IMG/VR virus record: IMGVR_UViG_3300035183_001469
Location: 1 to 25,513 of that record
Length of the DNA: 25,513 bases
Source of the DNA: a virus
Reading direction: 5' to 3' (one strand)
Part shown: in pieces, positions 5,392 through 25,513 of the stretch
Layout: the number at the start of each line of letters is the position of its first letter
How positions within the stretch are numbered: position 1 is the stretch's first letter
The notes under the pieces: model-generated
Told to the model about the DNA's origin: nothing
The model's input: only the letters and a program-made list of their open reading frames with translations
Databases searched by the model: none
Position numbers and translations under genes: made by a program

Positions 5392-5393
5392 CG

Positions 5394-7729: not shown

Positions 7730-7791
7730 CCTCGCGGTCGGCAAGCACTTCTTCGTCCGGGCCAGAGCCAGGACACCAGGAGAGGTGCGCC

Positions 7792-7971
7792 ATGCGCAAG
7801 ACTTGCAGCGTTTCTATTGCAGCGTTGCTCGGCAGCCACGTGGAGCCGAGCGAACCCGGACCGTCGTTGAACTCGCCGGAGCCACCTCCGTGCCGGGAGC
7901 CCATTAGGCCGCAGCCCTTCCGCCCGAAGGCGGCACCATTCCGCAGGCCGCTGCGGAGGCAGAACGAATAG
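7792..7971 (+). CDS. Small basic Pro-rich ORF (59 aa), unknown
   Basis: The ATG is preceded by AGGAGAGG at a normal distance, and the frame ends in TAG twelve bases before a strong hairpin. The 59 residues start MRKTCSVSIAALLG, a short hydrophobic stretch after two basic residues. The rest is Pro/Arg/Glu-rich and ends basic. Third codon positions are mostly G or C, as in the surrounding real genes. The amino-terminal stretch is too short for a confident signal peptide. I recognise no family. It may be a small moron product together with the winged-helix gene, or a fortuitous frame. Confidence 0.42.
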   Translation: MRKTCSVSIAALLGSHVEPSEPGPSLNSPEPPPCREPIRPQPFRPKAAPFRRPLRRQNE

Positions 7972-7982
7972 TAGTGGTGTTG

Positions 7983-8016
7983 ACGCGCCGGGCGATCTCA
8001 TCATCGCCCGGCGCGT
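7983..8016 (+). terminator. Strong hairpin, possible terminator
   Basis: A perfect 14-pair inverted repeat (7983-7996 with 8003-8016, loop CTCATC) starts 11 bases after the stop of the 59-aa ORF. It has no T-run. It stands between the plus-strand pair and the 3' end of the portal gene, so it may stop transcription from one or both sides. The remaining bases to 8140 show nothing else. Confidence 0.5.
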
Positions 8017-8140
8017 CTGGCTCGGTCCAGGTCGAGTTCGCGCAGCGTCGTGCGATCATGGCTTGTCAAGCCCCCACACCCTGCTCAGCGCATGCCACGT
8101 ATTGGAGCGGCAGACTTCCCAGACGGCTCCATCATCGCTG

Positions 8141-10920: not shown

Positions 10921-11450
10921 CAGCTCAGTCCTCCCGCAGCGTCGCGCAGCTCGGCCTCGAGTTCATCCGCCAGGCGACGGAGCGCCGTGATCTGCTCGGC
11001 GCGGTCCATTGTGCCCGTGGCCCACCATAGCTCCAGCTCGCGGCAGGCCTTCGCGTCCTTCCACCCGCTCTTGACCGCGGTATCCCAGACGGGCCGCAGC
11101 GCGCGCGGCAGGCCGGCGGGGCGCTCGGCCTCGACCTTCACCTTCGCGTCGACTTGGGCGTGACGTCGGCCCCATCGTTCGGGGTAGCGCGCGCGGAGCA
11201 TGTCCAGCGCGAGCCGCGGATCCGTCTCGGCGCCCTGCGTGGCGATCGAGGCGAGCCGCGCCTCGCCTCTCGCTTCTGCGGCGCGGATTTGGGCGTCGAA
11301 ATCCGGATCTTGCTTGCGCCACTCCCGCAGGGTGCGCGGAGCGATGCCCACGAGCTTGCAGACGGTCGGCCGGTGCAGTTGCCCGAGCCGGAGCGCATCG
11401 AGGATTTGCTTCTCGACCTCCGGCGTTCGCAGCGTCGGCCGGCCGCCCAT
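10920..11450 (-). CDS. Small terminase subunit
   Basis: A 176-residue protein starting MGGRPTLRTPEVEKQILDAL. The N-terminal helix-turn-helix (about 10-45: LGQLHRPTVCKLVGIAPRTLREW) is the DNA-recognition domain of small terminases, and is followed by a helical PDFDAQIRAAEARGEARLA segment. The middle DMLRARYPERWGRR is typical of the group. The C-terminal part ends in a helix that may bind the large subunit. Its stop overlaps the large-terminase start by one base. Its role is to select phage DNA and load the motor. Confidence 0.82.
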   Translation of the reverse strand: MGGRPTLRTPEVEKQILDALRLGQLHRPTVCKLVGIAPRTLREWRKQDPDFDAQIRAAEARGEARLASIATQGAETDPRLALDMLRARYPERWGRRHAQVDAKVKVEAERPAGLPRALRPVWDTAVKSGWKDAKACRELELWWATGTMDRAEQITALRRLADELEAELRDAAGGLS

Positions 11451-11453
11451 TGA

Positions 11454-11840
11454 TCACTCGAGCGCCGCGCGGAAGTCGTCGTAATCGTCGCGCGGCCGAG
11501 CCTCACGGCTCACGCGTCCCTCGAAGCGGCCCGCTTCCGCAGGCGCCGCGCGCGCCGGCAGCCGGCCCTCGCGCAGGGCGATGGCATCGACGAGGCGGCA
11601 GACGTCGCGGAGGATCACGCTGGTCTCAGGGAAGACGATCCGGCGCTCTCGTTCGATGCGCACAGCCTCCTTGAGCCGGCGCTTTTCGACCCGGAGCAGC
11701 CAGCGGAGCGTCTTGACGTCGGCGGCCACGCGCACCGGATCGGGGTTCGGCATCGGTCGGCCCTCGGCCGAAGCGCGCTCGGCTTCCTCTGGGGTCAGCG
11801 GTTGAGCGAGATCCCGCGTCCCTTCGCTGCTTTGGTCCAT
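11454..11840 (-). CDS. Unknown 128-aa phage protein beside the terminase
   Basis: It starts MDQSSEGTRDLAQPLTPEEAE, with GGAGG six bases before the ATG. I preferred this start to a longer frame up to 11990 that lies inside the HNH gene. The middle (about 45-95) is a long helical stretch rich in Arg/Lys/Glu (TLRWLLRVEKRRLKEAVRIE), followed by SVILRDVCRLVDAIALREG. The end is acidic. It overlaps the 3' end of the HNH gene by 46 bases. No family is recognised. Position suggests a packaging accessory or DNA-binding protein. Confidence 0.65.
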   Translation of the reverse strand: MDQSSEGTRDLAQPLTPEEAERASAEGRPMPNPDPVRVAADVKTLRWLLRVEKRRLKEAVRIERERRIVFPETSVILRDVCRLVDAIALREGRLPARAAPAEAGRFEGRVSREARPRDDYDDFRAALE

Positions 11841-12079
11841 GATGGCCTCCGGATCAGGGGGTGCATGAGCATGTGGCAATCGTTGCAGATCACCAGCATA
11901 TTGGCCGGATCGAAGACGAGCTCGGAGGCGATCCCCGAGACCGAGCACGGGATGATGTGGTGCACGTGCCGCGCTGGCGTGCCGCAGCACTCGCAGAACT
12001 GGCCGCGTGCTTCGAGCACCTCACGCACCACGCGCCGGTAGCGACGCACAGGGGTCTCGGGGGTCTGCTCGGCGGCCAT
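11795..12079 (-). CDS. HNH endonuclease next to terminase
   Basis: A 94-residue protein. Zinc ligands CECC (29-32) and CNDC (65-68) flank the HNH core: HH (40-41) in VHHIIPCS, then PANMLVICNDCH (59-69). This is a compact phage HNH nuclease. Homologues beside terminase genes cut or nick DNA during packaging in several tailed phages, and the same job is inferred here. The ATG is at 12079. The upstream 87 bases separate it from the divergent 72-aa gene and should hold both promoters. Confidence 0.85.
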   Translation of the reverse strand: MAAEQTPETPVRRYRRVVREVLEARGQFCECCGTPARHVHHIIPCSVSGIASELVFDPANMLVICNDCHMLMHPLIRRPSWTKAAKGRGISLNR

Positions 12080-12166
12080 TCACCCGAGGGGCCCTTATCC
12101 GCCGAATGCGGGCTGTTTCTGCCCGATACCGAAACCCATCCCCACCAACGTGGTACCCTGTCGCCC

Positions 12167-12385
12167 ATGTTCAGGAAGCTCAATTGGGAACGTGTCGAGG
12201 AAACGCTGGCCGACGGGCAACCCAAACACCACGGCACCTACCGCACCGCGGTTCCCGGCGGTTGGTTGATCGCCATCTGGTCGGATGGGGCCGGACAGCA
12301 CGGCAGCGCATGGGGCGGCGGGGTGACGTTTGTGCCGGATCCCGAGCACAAGTGGGTAGCGGACACGCAGGCGTCGCCGCGATAG
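12167..12385 (+). CDS. Small conserved-looking protein (72 aa), plus-strand
   Basis: It starts MFRKLNWERVEETLADG and reads opposite to all neighbours. The body YRTAVPGGWLIAIWSDG ... WGGGVTFVPDPEHKW has the look of a small beta-sheet family found beside many bacterial genes, with the conserved 'tyra.vPGGWLv' and 'gltFvPDP.H.W' motifs. I know no established function. It sits in a gap between two minus-strand phage genes, so it may be an independently expressed moron. The ribosome-binding site is weak. Confidence 0.65.
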   Translation: MFRKLNWERVEETLADGQPKHHGTYRTAVPGGWLIAIWSDGAGQHGSAWGGGVTFVPDPEHKWVADTQASPR

Positions 12386-12400
12386 GACAAGGCTTCGCCG

Positions 12401-12826
12401 CTACCGCTTCCCCCGGCGCAGGGCGCCCTCCGCCGCAGCAAGCCGCGTCTCGAGTTCTTGGACCTTCGCCCTAAGGCTGGACAGCTCGTCCAGCCCTGCG
12501 AACGCCAAGGGACAGGCCTGGCGCAGGGCCGCGAGGCTCACGACCGTACCCCCGCGGCCGCGCCGTGCGACGCAGAGCAGCGCGCCGCTTTGCCGCTCCA
12601 GCGCGCGCAGGCGCCGCAGCACACGCCTCCGCCACCCGGATCCCTTCGGGGGGACACCCAGCACGACCGCAGCTTCAGCCAGGCCGATGGCCGGTGATGC
12701 AGGGGGCGCTCGACGCGCTTCTCGTCGGCCCTTGCGCTGCGGCACGTCGTCTTCAGTATCATCGCCGGCCGTGCCCCAGACGGCCGTTTCGAGCATAGCT
12801 CCCCAATTTGAGCGCAAAGGATTCAC
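12401..12826 (-). CDS. Small helix-turn-helix/coiled-coil phage protein
   Basis: A 141-residue protein from a GTG at 12826 with GGAGG seven bases upstream; the GTGA overlaps the stop of the upstream frame. Residues about 45-100 may fold as a helix-turn-helix (SPAIGLAEAAVVLGVPP ... WRRRVLRRLRALERQSG). The C-terminus (about 113-138) is a heptad-like coiled coil (LDELSSLRAKVQELETRLAAAEG). It is probably a DNA-binding accessory to replication or regulation. An ATG at 12796 is an alternative start. Confidence 0.65.
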   Translation of the reverse strand: MNPLRSNWGAMLETAVWGTAGDDTEDDVPQRKGRREARRAPPASPAIGLAEAAVVLGVPPKGSGWRRRVLRRLRALERQSGALLCVARRGRGGTVVSLAALRQACPLAFAGLDELSSLRAKVQELETRLAAAEGALRRGKR

Positions 12827-13476
12827 GGGCCACCTCCGGACAGGTGCGCAGCACGAGCGATGCGTGGGAAAGAGGGCGACTTGCGGACCGGCGGGCGTCG
12901 CTGGCCGGCCTTCGCAGTGGGGAAAATAAAGTGTCGAGCGCGGTCAACGCCGTCGCCGGCCGGGGAAGATTTCGCCTCGCCGGGCGGCCCTTCGAGGACG
13001 CTCCCGCCGAGGCCCTGGCCCGCGCCGAGCTCGACCACCTCGACCACCTCGACCGCCTCGACCAGGGCCGCGCCGAGGTGTCCCCGAGGTCCGTGCGATC
13101 GAGAGCCGCGGTCGAGGGCGCCGGTGCAGCTCTTCATTTCCGCCACCTCGGGCCCCCCGGATGCGGGTGCGGCGGAAATACGCTGTCGAGCGCGGTCAAC
13201 GCCGTCGCCGGCCGGGGAAGATTTCGCCTCGCCGGGCGGCCCTTCGAGGACGCTCCCGCCGAGGCCCTGGCCCGCGCCGAGCTCGACCACCTCGACCACC
13301 TCGACCGCCTCGACCAGGGCCGCGCCGAGGTGTCCCCGAGGTCCGTGCGATCGAGAGCCGCGGTCGAGGGCGCCGGTGCAGCTCTTCATTTCCGCCACCT
13401 CGGGCCCCCCGGATGCGGGTGCGGCGGAAATACGCTGTCGAGCGCGGTCAACGCCGTCGCCTTGCTGCGGTTTCAA
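12823..13476 (-). CDS. Protein made of a tandem 84-residue duplication, unknown
   Basis: A 217-residue frame from a TTG at 13476 with GGAGG five bases upstream. Its stop overlaps the next start (GTGA), as expected in this operon. Two identical 84-residue copies (from GDGVDRARQR onward) come from the 252-bp DNA repeat. Each holds AALVEAVEVVEVVELGAG. The end is basic. No family is recognised and the composition (Gly/Pro/Arg-rich) is not convincing as a globular protein. The opposite strand is also open through the repeat with a similar third-position bias, so coding is uncertain despite the good start and stop context. Confidence 0.42.
   Translation of the reverse strand: MKPQQGDGVDRARQRISAAPASGGPEVAEMKSCTGALDRGSRSHGPRGHLGAALVEAVEVVEVVELGAGQGLGGSVLEGPPGEAKSSPAGDGVDRARQRISAAPASGGPEVAEMKSCTGALDRGSRSHGPRGHLGAALVEAVEVVEVVELGAGQGLGGSVLEGPPGEAKSSPAGDGVDRARHFIFPTAKAGQRRPPVRKSPSFPRIARAAHLSGGGP
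12932..13461. repeat. 252-bp tandem repeat, 2.1 copies
   Basis: Copy one is 12932-13183 and copy two 13184-13435. The first 26 bases recur a third time at 13436-13461. I read the two full copies as identical. The unit length is a multiple of three. Inside each copy is a short 9-bp repeat (CTCGACCAC-type, near 13030-13065 and 13282-13317). Confidence 0.93.
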
Positions 13477-13496
13477 CTTTGCCTCCGTGCGCTATG

Positions 13497-15143
13497 CTAT
13501 CCGGCCGCTGCTTTCGCCGGCTGTAGCCACGTCCCCCTCGTGAGGCCCGGCCTTGGCTGTAATCGTTTCGTTATCGTCGCGACCTCCTCGGGCCTGGCGT
13601 CGGCGGTCATCCGGGCCTTTCCCCCGCTCACGGGCGCTGGCTCCTGCGGTGGCAGCGGCAGCCCATACCCGCCAATCCGGGCCAACAGGCAAGCCAAAGG
13701 ATCCATGATCGCCTCCCGCCGCACATCCCGGACGATGCACGTTGTCCAATGATCAAGGACATGCGCGGACGTCACGCTCGGTCCCGCTCGCGGGGCTTGC
13801 TCGTGTGCCAGCGCGACGATGCGTGCGGCATTCACCCGATCCCGAGGCCCCTCTGCTCGGGCCCGACCGCCATTCGCCTGTGCCCAGCGTTGATCAAACG
13901 CAGCAAGGAACCGCCGAACATCGTCCGCGTCTGCGTAGGGCGCCACGGGCTCCCCACGTGCGCGCGCAGCAGCTTTCGCCGCGTCGCCCCTCCGCGCCGC
14001 CCTCACCCGACACGACAGGAACTTGGCAATCCTCGCCGGCCCCATCGCTTCGCCTTCCCGGTCAGGTGGCTGGTCGCGCACGTCCGCCGCGAGCGAGCAA
14101 GCGGCCTCCCGAATCGCGTGCAGCAGGTCCGGCAGCTCGAGCAACGGCGCCGGCCCCGCCATCCCTGCGAGACGCGCGGCAAGCTCGGCCGTGGCAATGC
14201 AGGCGAGCGGCCCTCGCGCCTGCCCCGGGCGAGCGCCAGCGATCCGGAGATCAACCAGAACGCGCTCCACCAGCGTCGCCGCCGGAGGCCCCGCCGCCGG
14301 TGGATCCGAGACTGGAGCCGTCCCCAGTTGTTCGGTTGGAGGGGCAGCCGCCGTGGAGGCCGTAGCCCCCGTCGCAGCCCCACGCTGGGCCTCGAGCGCC
14401 GGGGGAGACACCACGCAGCAATCCCGCTCGCCATCGTCCCGCCGCCCCTCCGGTTCCCCCAAGATCCCATCCACCGCCCCCCCACTCTCCGCCGCGCCGT
14501 CGCACGCGCGCGCGCGCTGGGTGGCAGGAGCAGGGTCAACGTCAGAGGGGGGGATCTTCTGTTCCTGTTCCTGATCCGGATCCGGATCCTGTTCTTGGTT
14601 CCCTGAACCCTTCCCCGAAGGCTTCACCGGACCCTTCGGGAAAGTCTTCCCGGTAGCCTTCCGGGAAGCCCTCCGGGAAGCCTTCCCGGCCACCTTGTCG
14701 AACGCCGCCGCGAAGGCAGGGGAGATCGCCTCGAGCGTCCGCCGGATGCCGCTGCGCGCCTTGTCGAGCAGGCGGCACTCCGGCAACCCCCGCCATTCCT
14801 CCGCCCAGCCGAGGACCACGTTCGGATTCGCCGGCTCGTTGTGCTTCACAGCGTTCGGGAGCCAGCACAGCAGCGAATCCGGATCCCAGAGCGCAAGCCC
14901 CTGGTCCAGGATCTCCTGGAAGCACCGCCGCGTGTCCTCCACTGGCCACCCGAGCCTTTCCGCCATGGCCAGCGGACCGAGCACGAACAGCCCGGGAACG
15001 CGGCTGCAATGACTGCCCGTCAGGAGGTAGACCCACAGGTCCCGGGCGTTAGCCGTGGGAGCCGAGAGGGCGCGGAACCTTTGGTCGCCCCACATTCGCC
15101 GCGTGATGCGGCTGTACCGCTCCGGCGTGCGCTCCTCGCTCAT
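13497..15143 (-). CDS. Replication-initiator-like phage protein with N-terminal winged helix
   Basis: This 548-residue protein starts with an ATG preceded by GGAGGTGGCAA. Residues 1-130 match the N-terminal DNA-binding domain of phage replication proteins: YSRITRRMWGDQRFRALS, ARDLWVYLLTGSHCSRVPGLFVLGP, AERLGWPVEDTRRCFQEILDQGL, and WLPNAVKHNEPANPNVV. A low-complexity linker follows (about 150-190, tetrapeptide Lys/Arg/Gly repeats, then an Asp/Gln/Glu run). The C-terminal half is Ala/Arg-rich, with a helical region about 400-470. There is no Walker motif, so it is not itself a helicase. It probably binds the origin and recruits host helicase, as lambda O does. Confidence 0.7.
   Translation of the reverse strand: MSEERTPERYSRITRRMWGDQRFRALSAPTANARDLWVYLLTGSHCSRVPGLFVLGPLAMAERLGWPVEDTRRCFQEILDQGLALWDPDSLLCWLPNAVKHNEPANPNVVLGWAEEWRGLPECRLLDKARSGIRRTLEAISPAFAAAFDKVAGKASRRASRKATGKTFPKGPVKPSGKGSGNQEQDPDPDQEQEQKIPPSDVDPAPATQRARACDGAAESGGAVDGILGEPEGRRDDGERDCCVVSPPALEAQRGAATGATASTAAAPPTEQLGTAPVSDPPAAGPPAATLVERVLVDLRIAGARPGQARGPLACIATAELAARLAGMAGPAPLLELPDLLHAIREAACSLAADVRDQPPDREGEAMGPARIAKFLSCRVRAARRGDAAKAAARARGEPVAPYADADDVRRFLAAFDQRWAQANGGRARAEGPRDRVNAARIVALAHEQAPRAGPSVTSAHVLDHWTTCIVRDVRREAIMDPLACLLARIGGYGLPLPPQEPAPVSGGKARMTADARPEEVATITKRLQPRPGLTRGTWLQPAKAAAG
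14605..14692. repeat. 12-bp degenerate repeats inside the replication gene, possible origin iterons
   Basis: Units of about 12 bases built on CTTCCCGG / CCGGGAAG recur with 12-base spacing and encode the tetrapeptide repeats of the linker. Several are mutually inverted. A neighbouring 6-base repeat (GATCCG-type, about 14570-14590) follows. An origin inside the initiator gene is known in lambdoid phages; here it is inference. Confidence 0.45.
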
Positions 15144-15961
15144 TTGCCACCTCCGAAGAGGGATAGCTGGCCAGCCGACGGGCCCCGCGCGGTCCGGGTT
15201 TCCGAGCGCCTCACCGCGTCCCGCGCCGTCGCCGCGATCTCCGGATCGATCTCACACCCGATGAACCGCATCCCGAGCCGCCGGGCCGCGACGCCTGTCG
15301 AGCCCCCGCCGGTGAACAGGTCGACCACGACCCCGCCCGGGGGAGCGACCACCGAGAGAAAGCGCTCCAGGAGCTCGGGCGGTTTCGCCGTCTGATGATT
15401 GCGTTCCTCGTGGTGCATGCGGGCGCAGCGAACCACGTTGCCCGCCCCGACATCGTGGAAGACGCCGGTGCCTTTGACGAAGTGCAACACCAGCTCGTGC
15501 TGACTCCGGAACCCACGACCAAGCCCTGGCTGCTCCTTGTCCCAGACGATCATCGCCTGCCAGCGCAGCCCGCTCGACTCGAGCGCCGGAGCGAGATGCG
15601 GCACCATGCGCCAATCGCAGAAGACGCCGAAGCTCCCGCCGTCGAGGAGGAGCCGGTACGCCTGAACCGCGACGCAGCGGAGGAGCCACACGAGGCCCGC
15701 CGTGCCCATGTTGTCGTTGATGAACCACCCAAGCCGCTTGATGCTTTCGTGCTTCAGCATCCCGCGCGACTGGCGCTTCGCGCTCTCCGTGTAGCCGCCC
15801 GAGCAATAGGGCGGATCGATCCACACGGCATGCGCGCAGCTCGCCGGCAGGCAATCAGCGAAATCCAGCGCGTCCGCGTTCGCGAGATGCCACCCGGCAA
15901 GGCCCGCAAGCACATCCTCGATCGAGCCCTCGCAATCCATGGCCCGCTCCTCGTTCGTCAT
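15140..15961 (-). CDS. DNA (adenine-N6 or cytosine-N4) methyltransferase, beta-class order
   Basis: A 273-residue enzyme. The catalytic DPPY motif (49-52) precedes the AdoMet-binding motif DLFTGGGSTG (214-223), which is the beta-class order. It is followed by GMRFIGCEIDPE. There is a TAKPPELLERFL helix at 191-202, as in orphan phage methylases. The protein ends in QLSLFGGGK; QLSLF fits the bacterial sliding-clamp binding consensus. The ATG at 15961 overlaps the HNH stop (ATGA). An ATG at 15940 has a better GAGGAG site and may be the true start. It starts the replication gene by overlap at 15140-15143. Likely role: protection of phage DNA from host restriction, or regulation. Confidence 0.9.
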   Translation of the reverse strand: MTNEERAMDCEGSIEDVLAGLAGWHLANADALDFADCLPASCAHAVWIDPPYCSGGYTESAKRQSRGMLKHESIKRLGWFINDNMGTAGLVWLLRCVAVQAYRLLLDGGSFGVFCDWRMVPHLAPALESSGLRWQAMIVWDKEQPGLGRGFRSQHELVLHFVKGTGVFHDVGAGNVVRCARMHHEERNHQTAKPPELLERFLSVVAPPGGVVVDLFTGGGSTGVAARRLGMRFIGCEIDPEIAATARDAVRRSETRTARGPSAGQLSLFGGGK

Positions 15962-16509
15962 GGTTGCACCGCCAGAAACCCGAAGGGGAAGTCGAAGGGG
16001 TCCGCGCCGCCGCGCGTGCGTCGCCGAGTCCTGGCCTTTTCGCGCTCGCGTGCGAGCCATCCGGGCCGGAGTTCTTCCACGAGACCTCGGCCAAGTGCCC
16101 GATCGAGCGGCAGCGCCACGTCGAGGCGCACGCGGGTCAGGGCTGGAAGCTGGCCATCGCCCGAGAGCGCCCAGCCGTTGCCCACGCGCCCCGTATTGCA
16201 CCGCCAGCACGCCGCGATCAGGTTAGAGGGTTCGTTTGTCCCGCCCTCCTCCGAAGGGATCCAATGGTCGAGAGTGAGGCGGCGCCGCAGAGGTCCCGTC
16301 CGCCATGGTGCACGACGGCGGCAGAGGAGGCAGCGGAACGGAGCAGCATCGAGAAAACCCCGCGCCCCGAGCGCGTAGAGCTGGAGAACGCGCGCCGGAA
16401 TCGCCGTTGCGGGTCCCCCATCTTCCAGCGCGCGCAGCAGGGCGGCCGAGCGCGCGTAGATGGCGAGCCGCGTCGACGGACGGATCCATTTGGAGCCGCA
16501 ACCCCTCAT
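15958..16509 (-). CDS. HNH endonuclease-like protein (early operon)
   Basis: A 183-residue protein. CLLC (60-63) and CWRC (101-104) form a zinc site around LTLDHWIPSEEGGTNEPSNLIAAC, the HNH core with DH (81-82) and N96. It is a second, different HNH protein from the one at the terminase. Residues 1-55 are an N-terminal helical extension, and the C-terminal part is Arg-rich. It overlaps genes on both sides by four bases (ATGA). Its place just before the methyltransferase could mean a nuclease/methylase pair, or a recombination or homing function. Confidence 0.78.
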   Translation of the reverse strand: MRGCGSKWIRPSTRLAIYARSAALLRALEDGGPATAIPARVLQLYALGARGFLDAAPFRCLLCRRRAPWRTGPLRRRLTLDHWIPSEEGGTNEPSNLIAACWRCNTGRVGNGWALSGDGQLPALTRVRLDVALPLDRALGRGLVEELRPGWLAREREKARTRRRTRGGADPFDFPFGFLAVQP

Positions 16510-16824: not shown

Positions 16825-17310
16825 GTGGATCTAGGAGATCGTGTCAAGCACGTCCGGCAACTCCGCGGCCTTGGAAGCGCTGAGCTCGATCGCCTCGCCG
16901 GTGCAGCGATCGGCACGACCAGCCGCCTGGAGAGCAAGCAGCGCGGCAAGTTCGGGGGCACCGCGACCACGGTTGCGCGCGTGGCCAAGGCCCTCGGCGT
17001 CAGCATGCAGTGGCTCATGACCGGCCAGGGCCCGATGGAGGAGACGGAGCAGGACCCGATCCCGAACCGGGCGCTCGCGGCCTCCATCGCGCGGGAAGGC
17101 GGCATCGAGGAGGCTGCCATCCAGGCCGTGCTCGCCCTGCCCGTGAAGGACCCCGAGTCACGCACGGTCCTTTGGTGGATCAACGCCTTCCAGACCCGGG
17201 AGGCGTTCCACCGACAGGAGCGCGAGTTGATGCCCAACGACACGACATCGCCGCGTCGAGCCCAGAAGGAAGCGGGCGCGAAGCCCCGCCGGCCGAAGAC
17301 GAACCCCTAG
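16825..17310 (+). CDS. XRE-family phage repressor-like protein
   Basis: A 161-residue protein from a GTG at 16825. Residues 4-67 form an XRE/Cro-type helix-turn-helix: DRVKHVRQLRGLGSAELDRLAGAAIGTTSRLE ... VARVAKALGVSMQWLMTGQGP. The ending 'LGVs..WL..G.gp' is common among phage repressors. The C-terminal part is acidic, then helical (ALAASIAREGGIEEAAIQAVL), and ends basic. There is no Ser/Lys LexA-type peptidase domain, so induction would not be by self-cleavage. The start is chosen to give a normal family N-terminus; the frame is open much further upstream. It reads divergent from the early operon. Confidence 0.78.
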   Translation: MDLGDRVKHVRQLRGLGSAELDRLAGAAIGTTSRLESKQRGKFGGTATTVARVAKALGVSMQWLMTGQGPMEETEQDPIPNRALAASIAREGGIEEAAIQAVLALPVKDPESRTVLWWINAFQTREAFHRQERELMPNDTTSPRRAQKEAGAKPRRPKTNP

Positions 17311-17540
17311 TCGATGCCAGTTGCCACCTATGACGGGTGACATCGGCATGACGAACCGACGCCTTCGAGCCCCTTGACTGCTACCGGGACGCGCCCGGTC
17401 GATCACGGGTCTGTCCCGACCATCTCTTCGCGCGGGGTGACCGGGCGCTTATCCCAAGCCTTGCAGCGTCCCCCGCTCCGCGGGCAAACCTCCCTTGCCA
17501 ACGTCCGGGAGTCGAGCCTATCCTGCCCGACGGCTCCCGC
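17311..17540. other. Non-coding gap after the repressor
   Basis: A weak hairpin ACCGGG-ACGCG-CCCGGT (17383-17399) may end the repressor transcript. A promoter for the outer-membrane protein operon is expected here, but none is clear. Confidence 0.35.
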
Positions 17541-18659
17541 ATGTTCGCTCGCCTCCTTATCTCCCACGTCGCCGCGCTGGCCGTGCTCTCTGGGGCTGGC
17601 CGTGCGACCGCGCAGGAACGCCTGGATCCTCAGATCGCCATCCGCCTAGAGTACGACCCCGGCCCCCCGCAGCTCGCGTGTCCCTCGAGGCGCGAGTTCG
17701 CGGCGCACATCAACTCGCTCTTCGAGTACGTGGTCGTCCGTGACGACGCCCAGGCGCGTCTCGTCGTGACCGTGGGCAAGAAGGCCGGCGCGTTCGATGC
17801 GGAGATGAAACTCTTTGCCGCAGACGACGAGAAGGATCCGCGCTGGAATCCTCGGAAGCGGAACACCTACCACTGCCAGGAGCTGATCTATGATCTGGCG
17901 GTCGACATCAGGGAACACCTGGGCCCGCTGGGGTGGGGAGAGGACGCTACAGAGCCGCCGCCGTGGCTCCGCGCGCCTGCGCAGCCTGGGAGGCCCGACA
18001 GCGAACCTGAGAAACCACAGATAGGGAAAGACGAGGTCAGCACGCCGCCGGAGCCGGCCGTGGCAGCCCTACCGCCATCCGTGCTCGCGGTGGTGGACCC
18101 CGGCGCCTTCCCGCCACCGAATGCCCAGCCGCAGGCTTCAGGCCCGAAGGCGGAGGTTGGTCTCGGCGCGGTGATGTCACCATACGGTTTACCGAGCGTT
18201 GGTGTGGGAGGAAGCGGTCTCATCGGCCTCAGGTGGCCGAACTTCTTTCTAGCTGCAGATTTTCGAGGCGTGGTTACCCCATCTGCAACGATCGGCGCCC
18301 AATCGATTCCGGGACGAACATCGCTCTGGACGGGCGCGTTGCTGCCATGCGTCGCGACGAAGCATGTCGACATCTGCGGTATCATCGCGGCTAGCCAGCT
18401 AAACTTCAATATTCCCTCCAACATCACGGTTGGCTCTACCGACGGCTTTTCGTTGGGCTTCGGAACGCGGGTCGCGGCGCGATGGACGTTCGGATCAATC
18501 TTCGCGTTAACCGGATACGGGGAACTCACGGCGCAGCTCCGGACGCTCTCGCTCGCTGGCGAGTCCAGCGACGGCAAGGGTGGGGCCGCGATCTACTGGC
18601 GAACCCCAACCGCACGCATAACTTTGGGCCTGGCCATCCACGCTACCATTCCGCAATGA
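17541..18659 (+). CDS. Outer-membrane beta-barrel protein with periplasmic domain
   Basis: A 372-residue protein. Residues 1-25 are a signal peptide ending in ATAQ. Residues 28-138 match a periplasmic domain frequent in Polyangiales: IAIRLEY, a CPSRREFAAHI segment, alternating strands (ARLVVTVGKK, DAEMKLFA), then CQELIYDLAVDIREHLG. A Pro-rich linker (145-205) leads to a region of alternating strands (205-372: AEVGLGAVMSPYG ... LGFGTRVAARWTFG ... ARITLGLAI) that looks like a beta barrel. The barrel-coding DNA uses more A/T at third positions than the phage genes, suggesting separate origin. Its stop overlaps the lipoprotein start (ATGA). Function unknown. Confidence 0.75.
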   Translation: MFARLLISHVAALAVLSGAGRATAQERLDPQIAIRLEYDPGPPQLACPSRREFAAHINSLFEYVVVRDDAQARLVVTVGKKAGAFDAEMKLFAADDEKDPRWNPRKRNTYHCQELIYDLAVDIREHLGPLGWGEDATEPPPWLRAPAQPGRPDSEPEKPQIGKDEVSTPPEPAVAALPPSVLAVVDPGAFPPPNAQPQASGPKAEVGLGAVMSPYGLPSVGVGGSGLIGLRWPNFFLAADFRGVVTPSATIGAQSIPGRTSLWTGALLPCVATKHVDICGIIAASQLNFNIPSNITVGSTDGFSLGFGTRVAARWTFGSIFALTGYGELTAQLRTLSLAGESSDGKGGAAIYWRTPTARITLGLAIHATIPQ

Positions 18660-19786
18660 AAGGCAGATGCAACGTGAAGCAGAAAGCGCGCATTGGCTGG
18701 CTGTTCGGTCCCTTCGTGGGGGCGGCGCTGGGCGTCCTCGCAGCCGGGTGCAGCGAGGGGGTCACGACCATCATTTGGCCAGCGGACGCGGGACCGGATG
18801 CCTCGGCCGACGACGGCGGCACCGGGGAACAGAGCGATGCCGGCGCCGACAGCGGTGAGGAGGATGCCGGCCCAAGTTGTGGGACGACGTGCGCCGGTGA
18901 ATGCGTGGCATGGAAACCCTTGGAGGGGGACGGCCTCCCCGTGCTCTTGTATCTCGGGCCCGACGAGGAGAGCGCGCCTCCCTGCCCCGAAGCCGCGCCG
19001 GCCGAGCAGCTCACCGGACACGCCGACCTCGTCGTCCCCGAGGGCAAGTGTCCGTCGTGCACCTGCGGCCCCTCGACCGGCGCATGCGGGTTGCCGGCGT
19101 CGATTACAGCGCACTCGGCGCCATGCAATCAGGGAGGCATCGCCACGCTCACCGATCCGCCAGCAGCATGGGACGGCGCATGCACGGCGGACAACGCCAT
19201 TCCGGCAGGTCTCTCGTGCGGCCCTAAAGGGGTGCCGTGCGTGCAATCCGTGACGGTCGGCGCGTTGTCCGTGATCGACGAGTCCTGCGCGCCGCAGGCG
19301 CCTACGACGGGACCGGAGATCCCCGCGCCCTCATGGGCAAGCTTTGGGCGCGCGTGCGGCTTTGAGTCATGCGATGCCGGCCACCTGTGCGTACGGTCGG
19401 CACCCGAGGGTTACCGCGAGTGCGTCGCCTGGCCAGGAGATCACGCATGCCCCGAGCAAGCCTATCCCGACCGCGTGGTCCTCTACGAGACCTTCACCGG
19501 GGAGAGGGCATGCACAGAATGCCAGTGTGGCTCCCCCGAGGGAGGGTATTGCACGTCGATGATTTCTCTTTTCGCGGACGGAGCGTGCGGCGTGCCACTG
19601 CCAACCGTAGGGGCCTGGTCCGTCGATCCAAAGTGCGTCGAGATAGCGCCGTACGGCCAGGCCCTTGGCGCCAAGAGCGCATCGCCTCCTGTGTACCATG
19701 CCGGAGCGTGCCAAGCCACGGGGGGCGAGCTCGCCGGAAGTATCGAGCCGATCGGACCGACGACCTTCTGCTGCCAGACGCAATGA
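18656..19786 (+). CDS. Cys-rich lipoprotein
   Basis: A 376-residue protein. A basic N-terminus and hydrophobic stretch end in the lipobox LAAGC (28-32), so Cys32 should be lipidated. A flexible Asp/Ala/Gly-rich linker (about 42-72) is typical of myxobacterial surface lipoproteins. The mature part has about two dozen cysteines in pairs (CGTTCAGEC, CPSCTCG, CTECQCG, final FCCQ), implying disulfide-stabilised repeats. It overlaps the stop of the barrel gene by four bases and is followed 33 bases later by the sigma-like gene, so the three are probably one operon. The ligand is unknown. Confidence 0.78.
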   Translation: MKGRCNVKQKARIGWLFGPFVGAALGVLAAGCSEGVTTIIWPADAGPDASADDGGTGEQSDAGADSGEEDAGPSCGTTCAGECVAWKPLEGDGLPVLLYLGPDEESAPPCPEAAPAEQLTGHADLVVPEGKCPSCTCGPSTGACGLPASITAHSAPCNQGGIATLTDPPAAWDGACTADNAIPAGLSCGPKGVPCVQSVTVGALSVIDESCAPQAPTTGPEIPAPSWASFGRACGFESCDAGHLCVRSAPEGYRECVAWPGDHACPEQAYPDRVVLYETFTGERACTECQCGSPEGGYCTSMISLFADGACGVPLPTVGAWSVDPKCVEIAPYGQALGAKSASPPVYHAGACQATGGELAGSIEPIGPTTFCCQTQ

Positions 19787-19819
19787 TGGACCATTCCAAG
19801 AGCTGGAGGGAATCGCCCT

Positions 19820-20884
19820 GTGAGCGTCCAACCTGACGAAGTAATCCAATATCTGGCCGACGCGAAGCACCTCGAGCGCATCGGGGGATGGTTACGAACC
19901 GCGGGGATCCCCCACCAGGACGTGGCAGACCTCCAGCAGGATGTCGTGAGGGAGACGCTAGAATCGCGCGAGTCGTTCACGGGAGGAGCCGTCGGAGGCT
20001 TCGTCCACAAGATCGCGCGACGGCTGGCCGCCGATTATCACGAGAAGAAGGCAACCCGCACGAGGTTGTCCCATCTTGTGCAGGAGGAGGACGTCGCGCC
20101 GACGACGCCGTACGATCAGTACAGCGAAGCACAGATCGATCGGCTCACCCTTTCCCTGCTGGAGGAGGTTCCCGACAAGTACCGGCCGCTTCTCCGCGCA
20201 AGGTTCGTCGATGGCCTGGACGTCAAGGAATGCGCGACGTCGTTCGATATGCCGGTCCGCACGGTCCAGCACCACATCGAGACCGGGCTCAAACTGTGTC
20301 TCCGTCTGGCCAAGAGCAGGGGGGTGGAGGACGCCCAGCGCCACATGCTGCTTCCCTTGCTCGCCGAGGAGGTCCTCACCGGCCCAGGCGCCGACAACGA
20401 CGACGGCCCCGCCACGACCGATCAGCGCAAGGCGGGGAGTGATCGCCGGCTTGCGGTATCCGTCGCAGCCAACGTCGCGGCCGTCGCCGTAATCCTCTGC
20501 CTCCTCTTGATGCGAACCGCGGCGCCTTCCTCCTTCCGTCCCAGCGTCCTTGTCCGCCTTGGAGGGCAAGTCGAGCTTGCTGGGCTTGCCGCCGTGGCCC
20601 TTGCGAGGCCGAGGCCGGAGAGCGCCCCCATGCCGGCCGTCACAGCCTCGCCGGCCCCGGCCCCACCTCCGCCCGTCCGGTGCCCCCCGTCCAACGTGCC
20701 GTACAACGCGGAGGCGCGGGCGTTGAAACTCGCCCAGATCCTGGCGATGGAGGCCGCCCTCAGGGAGCAACGGAAGCACAAGGCCGAAGAGCAGCGCCCC
20801 GAAGCGCCCTCGCCTCGCCCAGCGCCCACGTCGCCCGCCCGCAGCCCCTTCCAGCTCGTGAACGGCAGCCTAGACGAGCCGTAA
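19820..20884 (+). CDS. ECF-type sigma factor fused to a transmembrane segment
   Basis: A 354-residue protein from a GTG at 19820 with GGAGGG upstream. Region 2 covers about 20-80 (DVADLQQDVVRETLES ... GFVHKIARRLAADYHEKK). Region 4 covers about 107-165 (LTLSLLEEVPDKYRPLLRARFVDGLDVKECATSFDMPVRTVQHHIETG). Then comes an acidic linker, a single transmembrane helix (about 211-232, LAVSVAANVAAVAVILCLLL), and a Pro/Ala-rich tail to 354. The order suggests a membrane-tethered sigma factor whose tail lies outside the cytoplasm. No separate anti-sigma gene is nearby, so the tail or the lipoprotein may be the sensor. It likely controls its own operon. Confidence 0.82.
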   Translation: MSVQPDEVIQYLADAKHLERIGGWLRTAGIPHQDVADLQQDVVRETLESRESFTGGAVGGFVHKIARRLAADYHEKKATRTRLSHLVQEEDVAPTTPYDQYSEAQIDRLTLSLLEEVPDKYRPLLRARFVDGLDVKECATSFDMPVRTVQHHIETGLKLCLRLAKSRGVEDAQRHMLLPLLAEEVLTGPGADNDDGPATTDQRKAGSDRRLAVSVAANVAAVAVILCLLLMRTAAPSSFRPSVLVRLGGQVELAGLAAVALARPRPESAPMPAVTASPAPAPPPPVRCPPSNVPYNAEARALKLAQILAMEAALREQRKHKAEEQRPEAPSPRPAPTSPARSPFQLVNGSLDEP

Positions 20885-21467: not shown

Positions 21468-22307
21468 ATGATTTCTCAGGGGAATGCCGCTGTCTTGCCA
21501 GCGGTTGAGGACGACGACCGCACCCAGGTTTACCAGCGCCCCGAGGCGTCGCGCTGCGCAGACTCGACCGTTCTGCCACCGCCCCTCGAGCGACACGAGG
21601 CGGGCGTAGAGGACGTGGACAACCGCCCCACCACGCCCGACCCCGAATGTGTGCCGACCGAAAACTCGCCAACTACGGAAGGGCCGGTCCAACACGCAGT
21701 TAAGGGCAACAACCACGAGGCCTCACCACAAGAGCCGCTCGGCAAACGAGCGGGCCCCCGGCTATGGTGGGGGGTGCTCGCTTGGCTCCTCATTGCACCG
21801 CTGGTGCGTGCGGCCCGCGCGGTGGAGAACTTCGCGGACGCGGTCCTCGGGCACACGACCATCGTCGAGCAGCTCCCCCCGCGCCTTCGCGTGGTGACGC
21901 TCAGCTCCTCCCCGTCCGTGCCCATTACTGATGGCGTGGGCGAGGCCATTCTCCACGACTGGCTCTTCAGGCTCCCGCCGGACTGGCTTCGCGCCATCGC
22001 CCTCGTTGCGCGCTACGTGGAGGCCCTACACCTTCACGAAGCATCGGTCCGCTTGGTAGCGCGGGTGCACCTCGCACTATCTCGGCTGCCGGCCGACGCG
22101 GACGGGACGGTCCCGCTCTCCCGTCTCAGGCTCTTCCTCCCGGGCATCGAGCGCCGCGAACTGGACCGCGCGCTACGCTGCCTGGAGGACGAGGGGGTCC
22201 TCGTTCTTCTTCCGCCGCGCGCAGGCGAGGACGCGACCACCGCACCAGCCATCGCCGATGAACTACGAGGGGCCCTTACGCGGGTGGAGCTCCGCTCTCC
22301 CGCGTAG
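21468..22307 (+). CDS. Membrane protein with possible C-terminal winged-helix domain, unknown
   Basis: A 279-residue protein; the ATG at 21468 has GGAGGG upstream. Residues 1-95 are polar and probably disordered. One transmembrane helix lies at 98-117 (RLWWGVLAWLLIAPLVRAAR). Residues 150-279 are globular: DGVGEAILHDWLFRLPPDWLRAIALVARYVEALHLH, then a helix-turn-helix-like stretch TVPLSRLRLFLPGIERRELDRALRCLEDEGVLVLLPP resembling the 'replace/read-out' end of winged-helix proteins. This layout could be a membrane-tethered regulator, but no family is recognised. It follows the large structured region and precedes the XRE gene. Confidence 0.65.
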   Translation: MISQGNAAVLPAVEDDDRTQVYQRPEASRCADSTVLPPPLERHEAGVEDVDNRPTTPDPECVPTENSPTTEGPVQHAVKGNNHEASPQEPLGKRAGPRLWWGVLAWLLIAPLVRAARAVENFADAVLGHTTIVEQLPPRLRVVTLSSSPSVPITDGVGEAILHDWLFRLPPDWLRAIALVARYVEALHLHEASVRLVARVHLALSRLPADADGTVPLSRLRLFLPGIERRELDRALRCLEDEGVLVLLPPRAGEDATTAPAIADELRGALTRVELRSPA

Positions 22308-22352: not shown

Positions 22353-22955
22353 ATGCCCCGTCGGAAAGAGCCGAACCCGCTCGCACAGGTTATAGGGCAC
22401 CGAATTCGCGACCTACGGCTCGAGACCGGACTGTCTCAGCGGGCTTTGGCGAGCCTGTGTGGCGTAAGCATAGGCCACGTTTCAACGATCGAAGCCGGCC
22501 TCGCTGCCATCACGATCGAGACTGTAGAGAAGATAGCTCGCGGTCTGGCGGTGTCGCCCGCCGACGTCCTGAACTACGCACCAGAAGAGGACGATCGTGC
22601 CGCCGTGGTTGAGCTATTACGCCGGCTCCCCCCTCAGGACCACGAGAGCGTTGCGCGGCAGTTGCGGTCCATGGCGGGCAGCGTCGCAAGAAAGAAGCCT
22701 CCAGAGCGGCCCTCGCGCGTGCAAGTCTCGCATTACCTGGGGAAGCTCACCGAGACGCAGCGTGTAACGCTTGCTGCCTTCCTGGACGGCCTCAAGAGCG
22801 GGGAACCGCGAGGACGCCCACGACGGCAAGGCGTCCCATCGTTGGATGTCCTCCGATACCGCATCCGCCAACTGTCGGACGAGCAGCGGGCCAAGGTCTG
22901 GGGTTACGTCCACCGGATGCTGGGAACGGCGTCGCAACCCGCACAAGCGGAGTAA
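22353..22955 (+). CDS. XRE-family regulator with three helical repeats
   Basis: A 200-residue protein with GGGAGGAG before the ATG. Residues 11-68 are a canonical XRE domain: LAQVIGHRIRDLRLETGLSQRALASLCGVSIGHVSTIEAGLAAITIETVEKIARGLAV. The rest holds three related helical units of about 26 residues: 85-110 (ELLRRLPPQDHESV...), 125-150 (YLGKLTETQRVTL...) and 166-191 (RIRQLSDEQRAKV...), separated by basic linkers. Repeats may mediate dimerisation. More A/T third positions than phage structural genes. It may regulate the flanking membrane protein or the excisionase/integrase. Confidence 0.85.
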   Translation: MPRRKEPNPLAQVIGHRIRDLRLETGLSQRALASLCGVSIGHVSTIEAGLAAITIETVEKIARGLAVSPADVLNYAPEEDDRAAVVELLRRLPPQDHESVARQLRSMAGSVARKKPPERPSRVQVSHYLGKLTETQRVTLAAFLDGLKSGEPRGRPRRQGVPSLDVLRYRIRQLSDEQRAKVWGYVHRMLGTASQPAQAE

Positions 22956-23126
22956 GCCGCAAGAACGCGCGGGACCGGCGCCGAGGCCTGCCTCCGCTGG
23001 CGAAGCCACAGCAGACTCGCCACCCGCCGCCGAGCATGCCAGTGCGCTCCTTTCGGACATTCCTTGTCCCATCCGGGCGTTCGAATTCGTCGAAAGCGGA
23101 GCGGCACCCGTGGCAGTCTCCGCCCG
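22956..23126. other. Gap before the excisionase-like gene
   Basis: 171 bases with no clear gene. A CGAATTCG palindrome (about 23089-23096) could be an operator. The excisionase frame is also open upstream to 23064. Confidence 0.3.
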
Positions 23127-23546
23127 GTGGCTCCTGTCGATCTACCTCCGGAGGTGAGCGAAGCGCTTACGACGCTAGCGCGCTTCATGGTGCGGGTCAT
23201 TCGCGCAGCCGCGACCTCGGCCGACGGCGAGAACATGGGGCCAGCCTACTACGACGCGAAGACGGCCCCCATGGGGCGGACGACGTTCCTGCGCCTGGCG
23301 CGAGAGGGGGCATTCCCGGCCCGGAAGGTTGGGAGAAAGGTGCTCGCGCGGAAGAGCGATGTCGACGCATGGATTCAGGGCGGCGCATCGTCACCGCTGG
23401 CGATCGCCACACCCCCAGCGGCCCCACCTATCGACGGCGAGGTGGACGCCCTGCGCCTCCACGATTTGATCCTCGAGGGGGAGCGCAAGGGCGCATCCGC
23501 TCCAGCGCAAAGAGCGAGCCGAAAGGCCCGGCGCGGGCGGAAATAG
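23127..23546 (+). CDS. Excisionase-like helix-turn-helix protein
   Basis: About 139 residues from a GTG at 23127. The frame can extend to a TTG at 23064. The core AKTAPMGRTTFLRLAREGAFPARKVGRKVLARKSDVDAWIQ is an HTH_17/Xis-type DNA-binding domain: it has the 'g.s..t..rl...g.fP..kvGrk.l....dv..wi' pattern. The C-terminus is a short helix and then a basic tail (RKARRGRK). Lying upstream of the integrase in the same direction, it probably directs excision and may also regulate the integrase. Translation start is uncertain because no strong ribosome site is seen. Confidence 0.7.
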   Translation: MAPVDLPPEVSEALTTLARFMVRVIRAAATSADGENMGPAYYDAKTAPMGRTTFLRLAREGAFPARKVGRKVLARKSDVDAWIQGGASSPLAIATPPAAPPIDGEVDALRLHDLILEGERKGASAPAQRASRKARRGRK

Positions 23547-23681: not shown

Positions 23682-23887
23682 GTAGCACCCGTCCATCCAC
23701 AGGCTCAACTTTGTTGCCGGCCTGCCGCCCCCATGGGCTGGCGCGGCGAGCTTGACGACGCGCACCGCCAGGGCGTCGAGCACCAGCGACCTGCCGGCCA
23801 CCTGACCGCGCGCGCTGCACGATCTGCCATCCGGCCCGCCGAGCTCGGCGAGGGGGCTGCCACGCATCGGCGCAGGAGGCCTTGACC

Positions 23888-25513
23888 ATGCCCCGCGCGC
23901 GAACGGGAACGTGGAAGCGTTCCGGCGATCAGTTCTTGGTCTACGTCACCCTCCCGCAAGCCCTCGTCCCTGGACGACCGGACCGGCGGCTGCCAGGCAT
24001 CCCCGTGCCGCTGGCCATCAACGGCAGGCCCACCAGCGAGAAGGAGCTCGACAAGCTCGCGAAGCTCTACACGGACCGACCCGAGCTCGCCCTCTCCCGG
24101 CTGGCCGAGCAGGGCAAACTCCCGGAGTGGGTACCGCCCGAGGCGGTGCCGCGCGATGCTCTGTTGCGGGGCGCTGCTGCGAATCCAGCGGCAGCGGCCG
24201 AAGCGGGATCGTTGCTCGAGACGACCGCGCACTACGCAGAGCGGTGGCTCGCTTGGCGGGATCGTCACGAGATGACGTCCATAACGTGCTACCGATCAGC
24301 GGTCGACCAGCACATCCTTCCGGTGCTTGGCGAGAAGCCCGTCGTGGCGATCACGACCCAGGACGCGCGAGAGATTGCCAGGATTCTACGCGAGAAGAGC
24401 GCGGCGAAGGTCCTCAGTCCGGCGAGCGCAAACAAATACTGGAAGGTCTTCCGCGCAATGTTGCGTGACGCATCGGACCCGGATCTGCCTGAGCTCTGCG
24501 TTCGTGAGAGCAACCCGGCCGCCGGGGTTAAGGGACCGCCACGACCGAAGGACAAGACGCGCGGATGCTTCTATCCCCAAGAGTTCCTCCAGTTCGTCAC
24601 CTGCGAGTCGATCCCGCTGCGCGCGCGGCGGTGGGTCGCGCTGATGATCTACCTCTGCCTCCGACCGGGCGAACTTCAGCAGCTTCGGTGCGGGGACATC
24701 GATCTCCGTCACAAGCGCGTTGCCATCTGCCGGTCATGGGACCGCGCGCACAAGCGTGAGAAGGGCCCCAAGAACGGCAAGCCGCGCTACTTGATCATCA
24801 AGGACGAGGACAACGTCCTCCCCCTCCTGCGCGTCATGATCGAGGAGCGGGGAGGCGAGGGGCGCCTCTGTCCGATCAACGCGCAGGCGTTCAGCAAGAA
24901 CTTCCGCCGCTACTTGGACCGCGCGGGGCTGAAACGTCCCGAGCTACGCGAGCGCTCAGCAACGCACATCCCGCTCACGACGCACGGCCTACGCGCGACA
25001 GGGACGACGTGGCGCGCGCGTCGAGGAGACAACCCGCACGAGTTGCGGCGCTGGGTGGGCCACGGCCGGCAGGAGACGACTGACCGCTACATCGACGAGG
25101 CGCAGCTCATGGGTGCGGGCGTGGACCAGGTCTTCCCCCCGCTCCCCGCCTGCCTGCTGGTGAATCGTTCCGGGAATCGTTCCGGTGGTGGGCAAGTAGG
25201 CGGAAAGACTGGCGGAGAGCTTCCCCCATGGGGAAGCCGCCGGAAACGCGTTGCGCGGGCCGCTCACCCACGGGGAAGTCGCCGGAAACGCGCGAACGTA
25301 CCTGCGCTCCCTTCTTCCGCCCCCCTCCCCCGCTACGGATGCACGTACACCAGCGTCCCCGCCGCGAGGTTCTGCGCCCCGTGCCACTCGGCCGGCACCT
25401 GCGGGTCCGTGAACTCGAACAGCCACGCCGCGTCCGCCGGGGAGACGTTCACGCAGCCGTTGCTGCGCGCCTTGCCGAACTCGTCGTGCCAGTACGCCCC
25501 GTGGATCGCGTAG
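23888..25513 (+). CDS. Tyrosine-type site-specific integrase (3' end runs into neighbouring DNA)
   Basis: Recombinase that joins phage and host att sites. The ATG at 23888 has AGGAGG eight bases upstream. The core-binding SAM-like domain spans about 105-195 (LLETTAHYAERWLAWRDRHEMTSITCYRSAVDQHI). The catalytic domain spans about 225-405 with R259 (YLCLRPGEL), K near 298, H366-x-x-R369 (THGLRATGTTW), H392 (WVGHGRQ) and Y401 (TTDRYI). All six residues look intact. The normal domain ends near FPPLP (about 420). The frame then continues about 120 residues without a stop until the last codon, and residues past about 482 are antisense to the L,D-transpeptidase gene, so the visible C-terminus is probably not the native one. 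Confidence 0.9.
   Translation: MPRARTGTWKRSGDQFLVYVTLPQALVPGRPDRRLPGIPVPLAINGRPTSEKELDKLAKLYTDRPELALSRLAEQGKLPEWVPPEAVPRDALLRGAAANPAAAAEAGSLLETTAHYAERWLAWRDRHEMTSITCYRSAVDQHILPVLGEKPVVAITTQDAREIARILREKSAAKVLSPASANKYWKVFRAMLRDASDPDLPELCVRESNPAAGVKGPPRPKDKTRGCFYPQEFLQFVTCESIPLRARRWVALMIYLCLRPGELQQLRCGDIDLRHKRVAICRSWDRAHKREKGPKNGKPRYLIIKDEDNVLPLLRVMIEERGGEGRLCPINAQAFSKNFRRYLDRAGLKRPELRERSATHIPLTTHGLRATGTTWRARRGDNPHELRRWVGHGRQETTDRYIDEAQLMGAGVDQVFPPLPACLLVNRSGNRSGGGQVGGKTGGELPPWGSRRKRVARAAHPRGSRRKRANVPALPSSAPLPRYGCTYTSVPAARFCAPCHSAGTCGSVNSNSHAASAGETFTQPLLRALPNSSCQYAPWIA
25162..25185. repeat. Tandem 12-bp repeat near the integrase 3' end
   Basis: GAATCGTTCCGG occurs twice back to back (25162-25173, 25174-25185). 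It could be part of an attachment site or the relic of a slippage event. Confidence 0.7.
25220..25236 (+). terminator. Hairpin after integrase domain end
   Basis: CTTCCCC-CAT-GGGGAAG, a seven-pair stem with a three-base loop. No T-run. It partly overlaps the first 24-bp direct repeat. Confidence 0.35.
25227..25292. repeat. Pair of 24-bp direct repeats, possible integrase-binding sites
   Basis: 25227-25250 and 25269-25292 match at 22 of 24 positions (core GGGGAAG-Y-CGCCGGAAACGCG) with starts 42 bases apart. Their place between integrase and L,D-transpeptidase suggests arm-type sites or an att region; not proven. Confidence 0.55.
25333..25513 (-). CDS. L,D-transpeptidase (YkuD), C-terminal part
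   Basis: About 60 residues are visible on the minus strand, running in from the right edge and ending in a TAG at 25335-25333. They carry the YkuD catalytic signature: IHGAYWHDEFG then RSNGCVNVSP, with the nucleophile Cys in SNGCVN and the conserved His before it. The end is VYVHP. L,D-transpeptidases form 3-3 cross-links or anchor proteins in peptidoglycan, outside the cytoplasm. This is probably a host chromosomal gene bordering the prophage. The integrase frame runs antisense through all of it. Confidence 0.88.
   Translation of the reverse strand, partial: YAIHGAYWHDEFGKARSNGCVNVSPADAAWLFEFTDPQVPAEWHGAQNLAAGTLVYVHP

Follow-up and report, generated by a model that had tools for sequence, protein, structure and literature searches.

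Extracytoplasmic function (ECF) sigma factors can be fused to a membrane domain, as in IutY, which is activated through proteolysis by Prc and RseP (PMC8999054), and phages of Streptococcus thermophilus can encode a prophage surface lipoprotein, Ltp, whose gene lies between integrase and repressor and which excludes other phages (PMC3952083). The locus analyzed here is found in a single IMG/VR prophage record of 25,513 bases (IMGVR_UViG_3300035183_001469), the whole of which is referred to as the window; the prophage is integrated in the chromosome of a Polyangiaceae-type soil myxobacterium. The conserved unit of the locus is a cassette of five genes, encoding a putative β-barrel protein (the barrel), a Cys-rich lipoprotein, a membrane-anchored ECF-type sigma factor, a protein termed g20 and an Xre-type helix-turn-helix (HTH) regulator. 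The cassette represents prophage cargo built from a previously undescribed envelope-sensing family of the Polyangia.

The sigma factor resembles IutY (ECF243) and the groups ECF48, ECF52 and ECF53 in having an ECF domain, a C-terminal transmembrane (TM) helix and an extracytoplasmic part, with no separate anti-sigma gene seen, and the ECF52 protein SCO4117 likewise has a Pro-rich periplasmic region (PMC8999054). It differs from them in that the sigma factor and its neighbors have no FecR, zinc-finger (ZAS) or TonB-dependent receptor match in Pfam or NCBIfam and the sigma factor has no carbohydrate-binding domain match; it is partnered by a small barrel-like protein and by a Cys-rich lipoprotein, and the set is carried by prophages. 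With Ltp the cassette shares a prophage surface lipoprotein gene between integrase and repressor, as well as allelic forms, but Ltp is a 142-residue Gram-positive lipoprotein without barrel or sigma partners, and its exclusion is demonstrated, whereas the cassette is known from sequence (PMC3952083). The window lipoprotein has no PHROG or Pfam match that would group it with Ltp. SitA/SitI on the Mx-alpha prophages of Myxococcus xanthus also involve a polymorphic lipoprotein in a multicopy prophage region of a myxobacterium; SitA proteins, however, are toxins with immunity genes, and no toxin/immunity pair is seen in the cassette (PMC5562445). Sporulation-like sigma factors of phages are similarly cellular-type sigma factors borne by a phage that may redirect host transcription, but they are of sporulation type, occur in phages of spore-forming Bacillota and have no envelope operon (PMC9429907).

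The sequence-only reading of the window knew of no described phage system of this make-up, and none was found. The lipoprotein and the sigma factor have no match in 50,697 phage records, the lipoprotein has none in plasmids, and its profile finds no relative among the IMG/VR viral contigs at the sensitivity used. Viral and genome collections scanned with the sigma factor or lipoprotein as single queries, an approach that reaches near relatives only, gave no match either. Neither the barrel nor the lipoprotein has a Pfam, PHROG, NCBIfam or PDB family match (PDB by profile search).

Cassette genes, promoter and position in the prophage

The gene order in the window is cI, barrel, lipoprotein, sigma factor, g20, HTH, Xis and integrase (Table 1). 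The first three cassette genes are tightly packed on the plus strand, and the ATG start of the lipoprotein would overlap the barrel stop by ATGA, in line with the initial description of three overlapping or closely spaced genes between repressor and integrase. Hidden Markov model searches located barrel homologues in 28 loci, and the arrangement of the trio is far beyond chance, because the three genes stand side by side in most of them. Two phage-like repressor genes, at 16828 and 22353, are present in the window, which corrects the account with a single repressor; that account is further extended by g20 and the HTH gene, which belong to the unit as well. The C-terminal region of g20, approximately 120 residues, is conserved and appears winged-helix-like by inspection only.

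The alignment of barrel homologues (A1) contains 14 invariant columns. The fold reading has as its sole basis the hydrophobic alternation of the C-terminal domain, which is significant in an alternation test (p = 0.004). A β-barrel identity is plausible: the predicted signal peptide-like start and the alternation agree with the earlier assignment, and family and PDB searches added no match to it. The designation as a Cys-rich lipoprotein is upheld by a lipobox-type LAAGC motif and 28 Cys, most of which are invariant along the whole length among 21 homologues; full-length homologues are 45–51% identical. A Pfam Prokineticin match to one lipoprotein (E 0.001) was taken as a match of Cys composition, and PADLOC matched nothing among the trio.

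The sigma factor passes the ECF family cut-offs for TIGR02937 (46.3 bits, cut-off 42.9) and, in region 4, for Sigma70_r4_2 (31.3 bits, cut-off 25.7), the latter being matched by 19 of 19 homologues. Region 2 scores 20 bits, under the cut-off of 24, and is matched by 12 of the 19 homologues at E<=0.01 (best 1e-16). A single TM helix at residues 213–231 (hydropathy peak at 213) is followed by a tail of 123 residues with 19% Pro, and all 19 aligned homologues retain a single TM helix with a tail of 76–155 residues, Pro-rich in nearly all. These features confirm the membrane-anchored sigma factor of the sequence-only reading.

A sigma70-like promoter, TTGC-N20-TANNNT, precedes the barrel start by 40–53 nt in 12 of the 12 closest cassettes, as against 7% of other genes, and a scan of seven cassettes gave exactly one per cassette region. 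The element GACGAAC[C/T] is found within 350 bases upstream of the barrel in 14 of the 15 closest loci, with about 0.15 GACGAACC matches expected (23 upstream stretches scanned).

The cassette is within the prophage, because the cI side is colinear with a sister prophage (L154, genome G380) on its left and an integrase followed by a host YkuD gene is found on its right. In L154, an integrase comes immediately after the methylase and cI genes, host-like genes lie beyond it, and the cassette is absent; in the window, an equivalent cI precedes the cassette, after which come an Xis-like protein and an integrase different from that of L154. The homology of the window integrase to its relatives stops near 25180, its open reading frame itself continues to 25513 in host DNA, and the prophage/host boundary is placed at 25180–25337. 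With its position inside a prophage, its own promoter and its absence from the same site of L154, the cassette has the genomic characteristics of a moron. A prophage end left of 17541, named at the outset as the finding that would overturn the reading, would make the trio host DNA. Homologues are indeed common in chromosomes, and the integrase of L154 comes right after cI, but to the right of the trio come an Xis and an integrase of phage type with the host YkuD gene beyond, and the cassette also occurs in related prophages. Based on the genes to the right, this boundary artefact is rejected as extremely improbable.

Recurrence, chromosomal relatives and allele diversity

Related prophages, with TerL at 86–88% identity, were found in four genomes (G306, G380, G382 and G442), and a search for the trio in them, as initially proposed, recovered it as recurrent cargo. 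In G306, contigs C1 and C28 (twice) carry tail genes, then the cassette in opposite orientation, then a serine integrase, the two prophages of C28 being arranged tail to tail, and the cassette of C21 adjoins tail genes. The order in G442 C122 is tail genes, small protein, HTH, g20, sigma factor, lipoprotein, barrel and integrase, and in G382 C49 g20 comes after the tail genes and the contig then stops. The cassette, or at least its g20 end, is thus located at six of six readable tail ends, mostly beside an integrase; a seventh copy, on G380 C98, is outside this count, the contig being too short for reading. Elsewhere the cassette lies beside a tyrosine integrase (L230, L232) or a serine integrase (L285), and in L219 and L221 an integrase and Xis related to those of the window (50–62%) accompany a more distant cassette. 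A position next to the integrase is the common rule for prophage cassettes.

The host family, to which Minicystis and Sorangium belong, was represented by 108 genomes. Of these, all four with a close TerL have a close barrel (>190 bits), as does only one other genome (G353). The hypergeometric probability of this co-occurrence is ~1e-6, with the genomes being related and the 190-bit line chosen after the scores were seen, and it is supporting evidence only.

Several further genes accompany these copies. In many tail-end cassettes (L228:4291-4575, L285:579-863, L278:4829-5113), g20 is succeeded by a protein of 94–98 residues that belongs to no known family; this protein was not encountered in the window in the interval from g20 to the HTH gene. 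In L228, L277 and L285, a protein of 160–201 residues, 86–90% identical across genomes, separates the barrel from the serine integrase. Serine integrases are present at both ends of the G442 prophage (L275:9014-10882, L277:4864-5754), between back-to-back methylase copies in G306 C1 (L151:6953-8668) and between the tail-to-tail prophages of G306 C28 (L228:9689-11392), placements that suggest arrays of inverted prophages. The copies in L219 (3766-11928) and L221 (3463-11886) belong to a compact integrated element of two genomes, whose integrases are 83% identical to each other. It consists of integrase, Xis, lipoprotein, a TPR-bearing barrel-like protein, sigma factor with TM helix and small open reading frames, and carries a 63% homologue of a small head gene of the window (3660-4031), with no other capsid or packaging gene seen. 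This element could represent a phage satellite or else a prophage in decay.

The cassette family is also a multicopy chromosomal gene set of the Polyangia from which the phage copies would be derived. Myxococcota genomes were reached with MglA as an anchor sequence. Lipoprotein matches are present in 30 of 379 such genomes, and Sorangium So ce26 has at least 12; the search scored the top candidates per genome, so that copy numbers are lower bounds. The Minicystis rosea chromosome contains barrel, lipoprotein, lipoprotein and sigma factor with TM helix in the window order, with no phage gene seen nearby. The order in So ce26 is sigma factor with TM helix, barrel, lipoprotein, in two intact loci (one split by an insertion sequence) and a partial third. 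The trio therefore exists in a chromosome without phage, literally the observation that had been named as contrary to a cargo role, and the alternative of captured host DNA is borne out as to origin. The status as cargo stands nonetheless, given that several related prophages share this cassette.

An IS3-type insertion parts barrel from lipoprotein in one of the Sorangium copies (L108:5538-7039). The chromosomal loci of the close group (L279:6194-9614 and L281:8125-10835; L224 and L282) are conserved between species, and their flanking host genes are shared.

One clade in the barrel and sigma trees (100/99 and 99/97) unites L278 with the eight prophage-linked cassettes other than that of the window; the window cassette branches deeply and separately in a larger group that also includes the chromosomal loci L279–L282 and L224. 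The lipoprotein tree places the window, the eight prophage-linked copies, L278, L224 and L282 in one clade (98/96). We read this as a probable host origin with at least two captures by phage, the exact place of the window being uncertain owing to long branches. L277 groups differently in the barrel tree than in the trees of the lipoprotein and the sigma factor, a hint of recombination within the cassette.

The baseplate proteins of four G306 prophages are 97–98% identical. For the pairs of their cassettes that were measured, barrels are 50–71%, lipoproteins 52–81% and sigma factors 34–59% identical, with the exception of the C1/C28b sigma pair (92%). Synonymous divergence (dS) of the cassette is ~0.2–0.7 within an allele class and ~1.0–1.2 between classes, compared with 0.17–0.23 for structural genes, and the ratio of nonsynonymous to synonymous divergence (dN/dS) is roughly 0.15–0.6. 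Allele classes recur across genomes: C28a pairs with G380 C78 (83–87%) and C21 with G380 C63 (78–87%). The cassettes are maintained under purifying selection, yet exchanged between phage backbones.

Proposed role and alternative explanations

The cassette is most likely a host-derived trans-envelope sensor that serves as lysogenic-conversion cargo. Starting from its gene content, position in the prophage, recurrence, allele diversity, purifying selection and one shared promoter, we consider it probable that this is a five-gene conversion cassette from the Polyangia chromosomal family, carried beside the integrase of Mu-like-headed, contractile-tailed prophages and acting as follows. The operon would be transcribed in the lysogen from the sigma70-like promoter, and the barrel and the Cys-rich lipoprotein would form a pair in the outer membrane. 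The TM helix of the sigma factor, together with its Pro-rich tail in the periplasm, would restrain the protein at the inner membrane in an inactive state. Should the outer-membrane pair change, proteolysis of the tail would free the sigma domain, a step proposed because the sigma domain of IutY, fused to a membrane domain, is freed by Prc and RseP in this way. The freed domain could then adjust the cassette operon, host envelope genes, or both. The gain for the phage would be an altered and monitored cell surface, plausibly with allele-specific exclusion of related phages. The receptor masking, exclusion and switch-on by an envelope signal that were suggested at the outset are candidate effects.

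Several observations weigh against this reading. Single-sequence AlphaFold2 gave no usable model of the barrel or of the lipoprotein (pLDDT, the predicted local distance difference test, 35). At the chromosomal loci L224 and L282, barrel and lipoprotein occur without an adjacent sigma gene, and chromosomal copies of the cassette exist without phages, so that its basic function need not be phage-related. GACGAAC was tried as the −35 element of the cassette sigma factor and rejected, as no consistent −10 element follows it; autoregulation by this sigma factor is not supported by a clear ECF −35/−10 pair, and the promoter is sigma70-like.

The allele pattern fits exclusion or compatibility between phages, and a passenger host sensor fits it nearly as well. 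An ordinary Polyangia envelope-sensing set that hitchhikes near attachment (att) sites, for example by imprecise excision, with nothing phage-specific gained, would agree with the many chromosomal paralogues, such as the lipoprotein matches of So ce26, with the same-order set of Minicystis and with the branching of the window cassette apart from the tail-end prophage clade in the barrel and sigma trees. Chance hitchhiking should often be lost, however, and the cassette or its g20 end is present at every readable tail end of related prophages and shows purifying selection; we regard such a passenger as possible but not the expected case. Allele-specific superinfection exclusion or compatibility, in which same-class phages are stopped at adsorption or injection by the surface pair and the sigma factor and HTH regulator tune the dose, is an equally tentative proposal. 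It draws on the co-resident G306 prophages, where near-identical baseplates stand against cassette alleles at 34–81% identity, on the allele classes shared between genomes and on a placement resembling that of Ltp, but the genomes are few, C1 and C28b have similar sigma factors in one host, and chromosomal relatives occur in genomes where the phage family was not detected (e.g. G353, G001, G002). A fuller version, which we hold to be rather unlikely, is a phage-borne compatibility system with its own sensor: the barrel/lipoprotein pair would mark the lysogen and exclude same-class phages, the tethered sigma factor would read the pair and set its dose, and prophages in one chromosome would have to differ in allele.

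A surface module for kin discrimination, comparable to the SitA toxins carried by prophages or to TraA, the polymorphic receptor of Myxococcus, is improbable. The presence of a polymorphic lipoprotein on a multicopy myxobacterial prophage does recall SitA on Mx-alpha (PMC5562445, PMC6070905), but Pfam and PADLOC searches revealed no toxin domain, and most Cys are conserved along the whole length, unlike the variable C-terminal toxin domain of the SitA type.

The preferred reading, a conversion cassette with its own envelope sensor, ties a large unnamed envelope-sensing family of the Polyangia to a phage family that apparently carries one copy as standard cargo, and gives context to two protein families without Pfam, PHROG, NCBIfam or PDB match. 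If it is true, a temperate phage that brings both a surface change and a membrane-tethered sigma factor monitoring that change would be unusual, and the viruses bearing the cassette appear to reshape or sense the host surface in a way not previously described. The allele pattern, with near-identical virions, diverged cassettes and shared classes, makes what governs the cohabitation of prophages in one cell directly testable in myxobacteria.

Phage backbone and features of the window

The tailed-phage genes occupy the minus strand from 227 to 16509, as judged by family matches and gene order. TerL and the methylase are named by family match, and several other structural names come from reading of the sequence and gene order.

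Table 1. Features of the window with their coordinates, strand and basis
Feature	Position	Strand	Basis
Tail sheath (contractile)	227-2272	-	Colinear in sister phage L004
Major capsid protein	4024-4956	-	Colinear in sister phage L004
Protease-type	5394-6533	-	Colinear in sister phage L004
Portal	8141-9514	-	Colinear in sister phage L004
TerL	9511-10920	-	phrog_38 E=1e-73
TerS	10920-11450	-	Colinear in sister phage L004
HNH	11795-12079	-	Colinear in sister phage L004
Methylase (methyltransferase)	15140-16033	-	phrog_67 E=6e-41
cI-like HTH repressor	16828..17310	+	phrog_4 E=9e-11; 79% identical cI, same place after methylase, in sister prophage L154
GACGAACC element upstream of operon	17350..17357	+	GACGAAC[C/T] conserved upstream of barrel
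TTGC-N20-TANNNT sigma70-like promoter	17495..17524	+	Shared with closest cassettes
Barrel gene	17541..18659	+	Signal peptide-like start, periplasmic-type N domain, Pro-rich linker, β-rich C domain
Cys-rich surface lipoprotein	18656..19786	+	Start ATG 18656 or GTG 18674; Asp/Ala/Gly-rich linker
ECF-type sigma factor, one TM helix, Pro-rich tail	19820..20884	+	TIGR02937, Sigma70_r4_2; 33 nt after lipoprotein
g20, fourth cassette gene	21471..22307	+	Homologues (33-42%) immediately follow sigma in L225, L228 (two), L230, L238
Xre-type HTH regulator, fifth cassette gene	22353..22955	+	HTH_31 E=1e-13; 41-49% homologues, same place, L228, L238/L285, L276
Excisionase-like HTH_17 protein (Xis)	23064..23546	+	HTH_17 match; 50-52% homologues beside related integrase in L219, L221
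Tyrosine integrase	23882..25190	+	phrog_1 E=3e-38; 62-63% relatives
YkuD L,D-transpeptidase 3' end, host gene	25337..25513	-	YkuD E=2.7e-9; 83-84% nucleotide match to G306, G380 chromosomal genes

The small head gene at 3660-4031 has a weak Mu-like FluMu_N match. A related viral contig, the sister phage L004, is colinear with the phage genes of the window, with proteins 58–91% identical and TerL 87% identical; it stops short of the cassette region. Within the backbone, the region 12823-13476 contains GC-rich repeat units in two near-identical copies ~250 nt apart. These units recur in the sister prophages and in L219 and L221, and several contigs of the sister genomes break at them.

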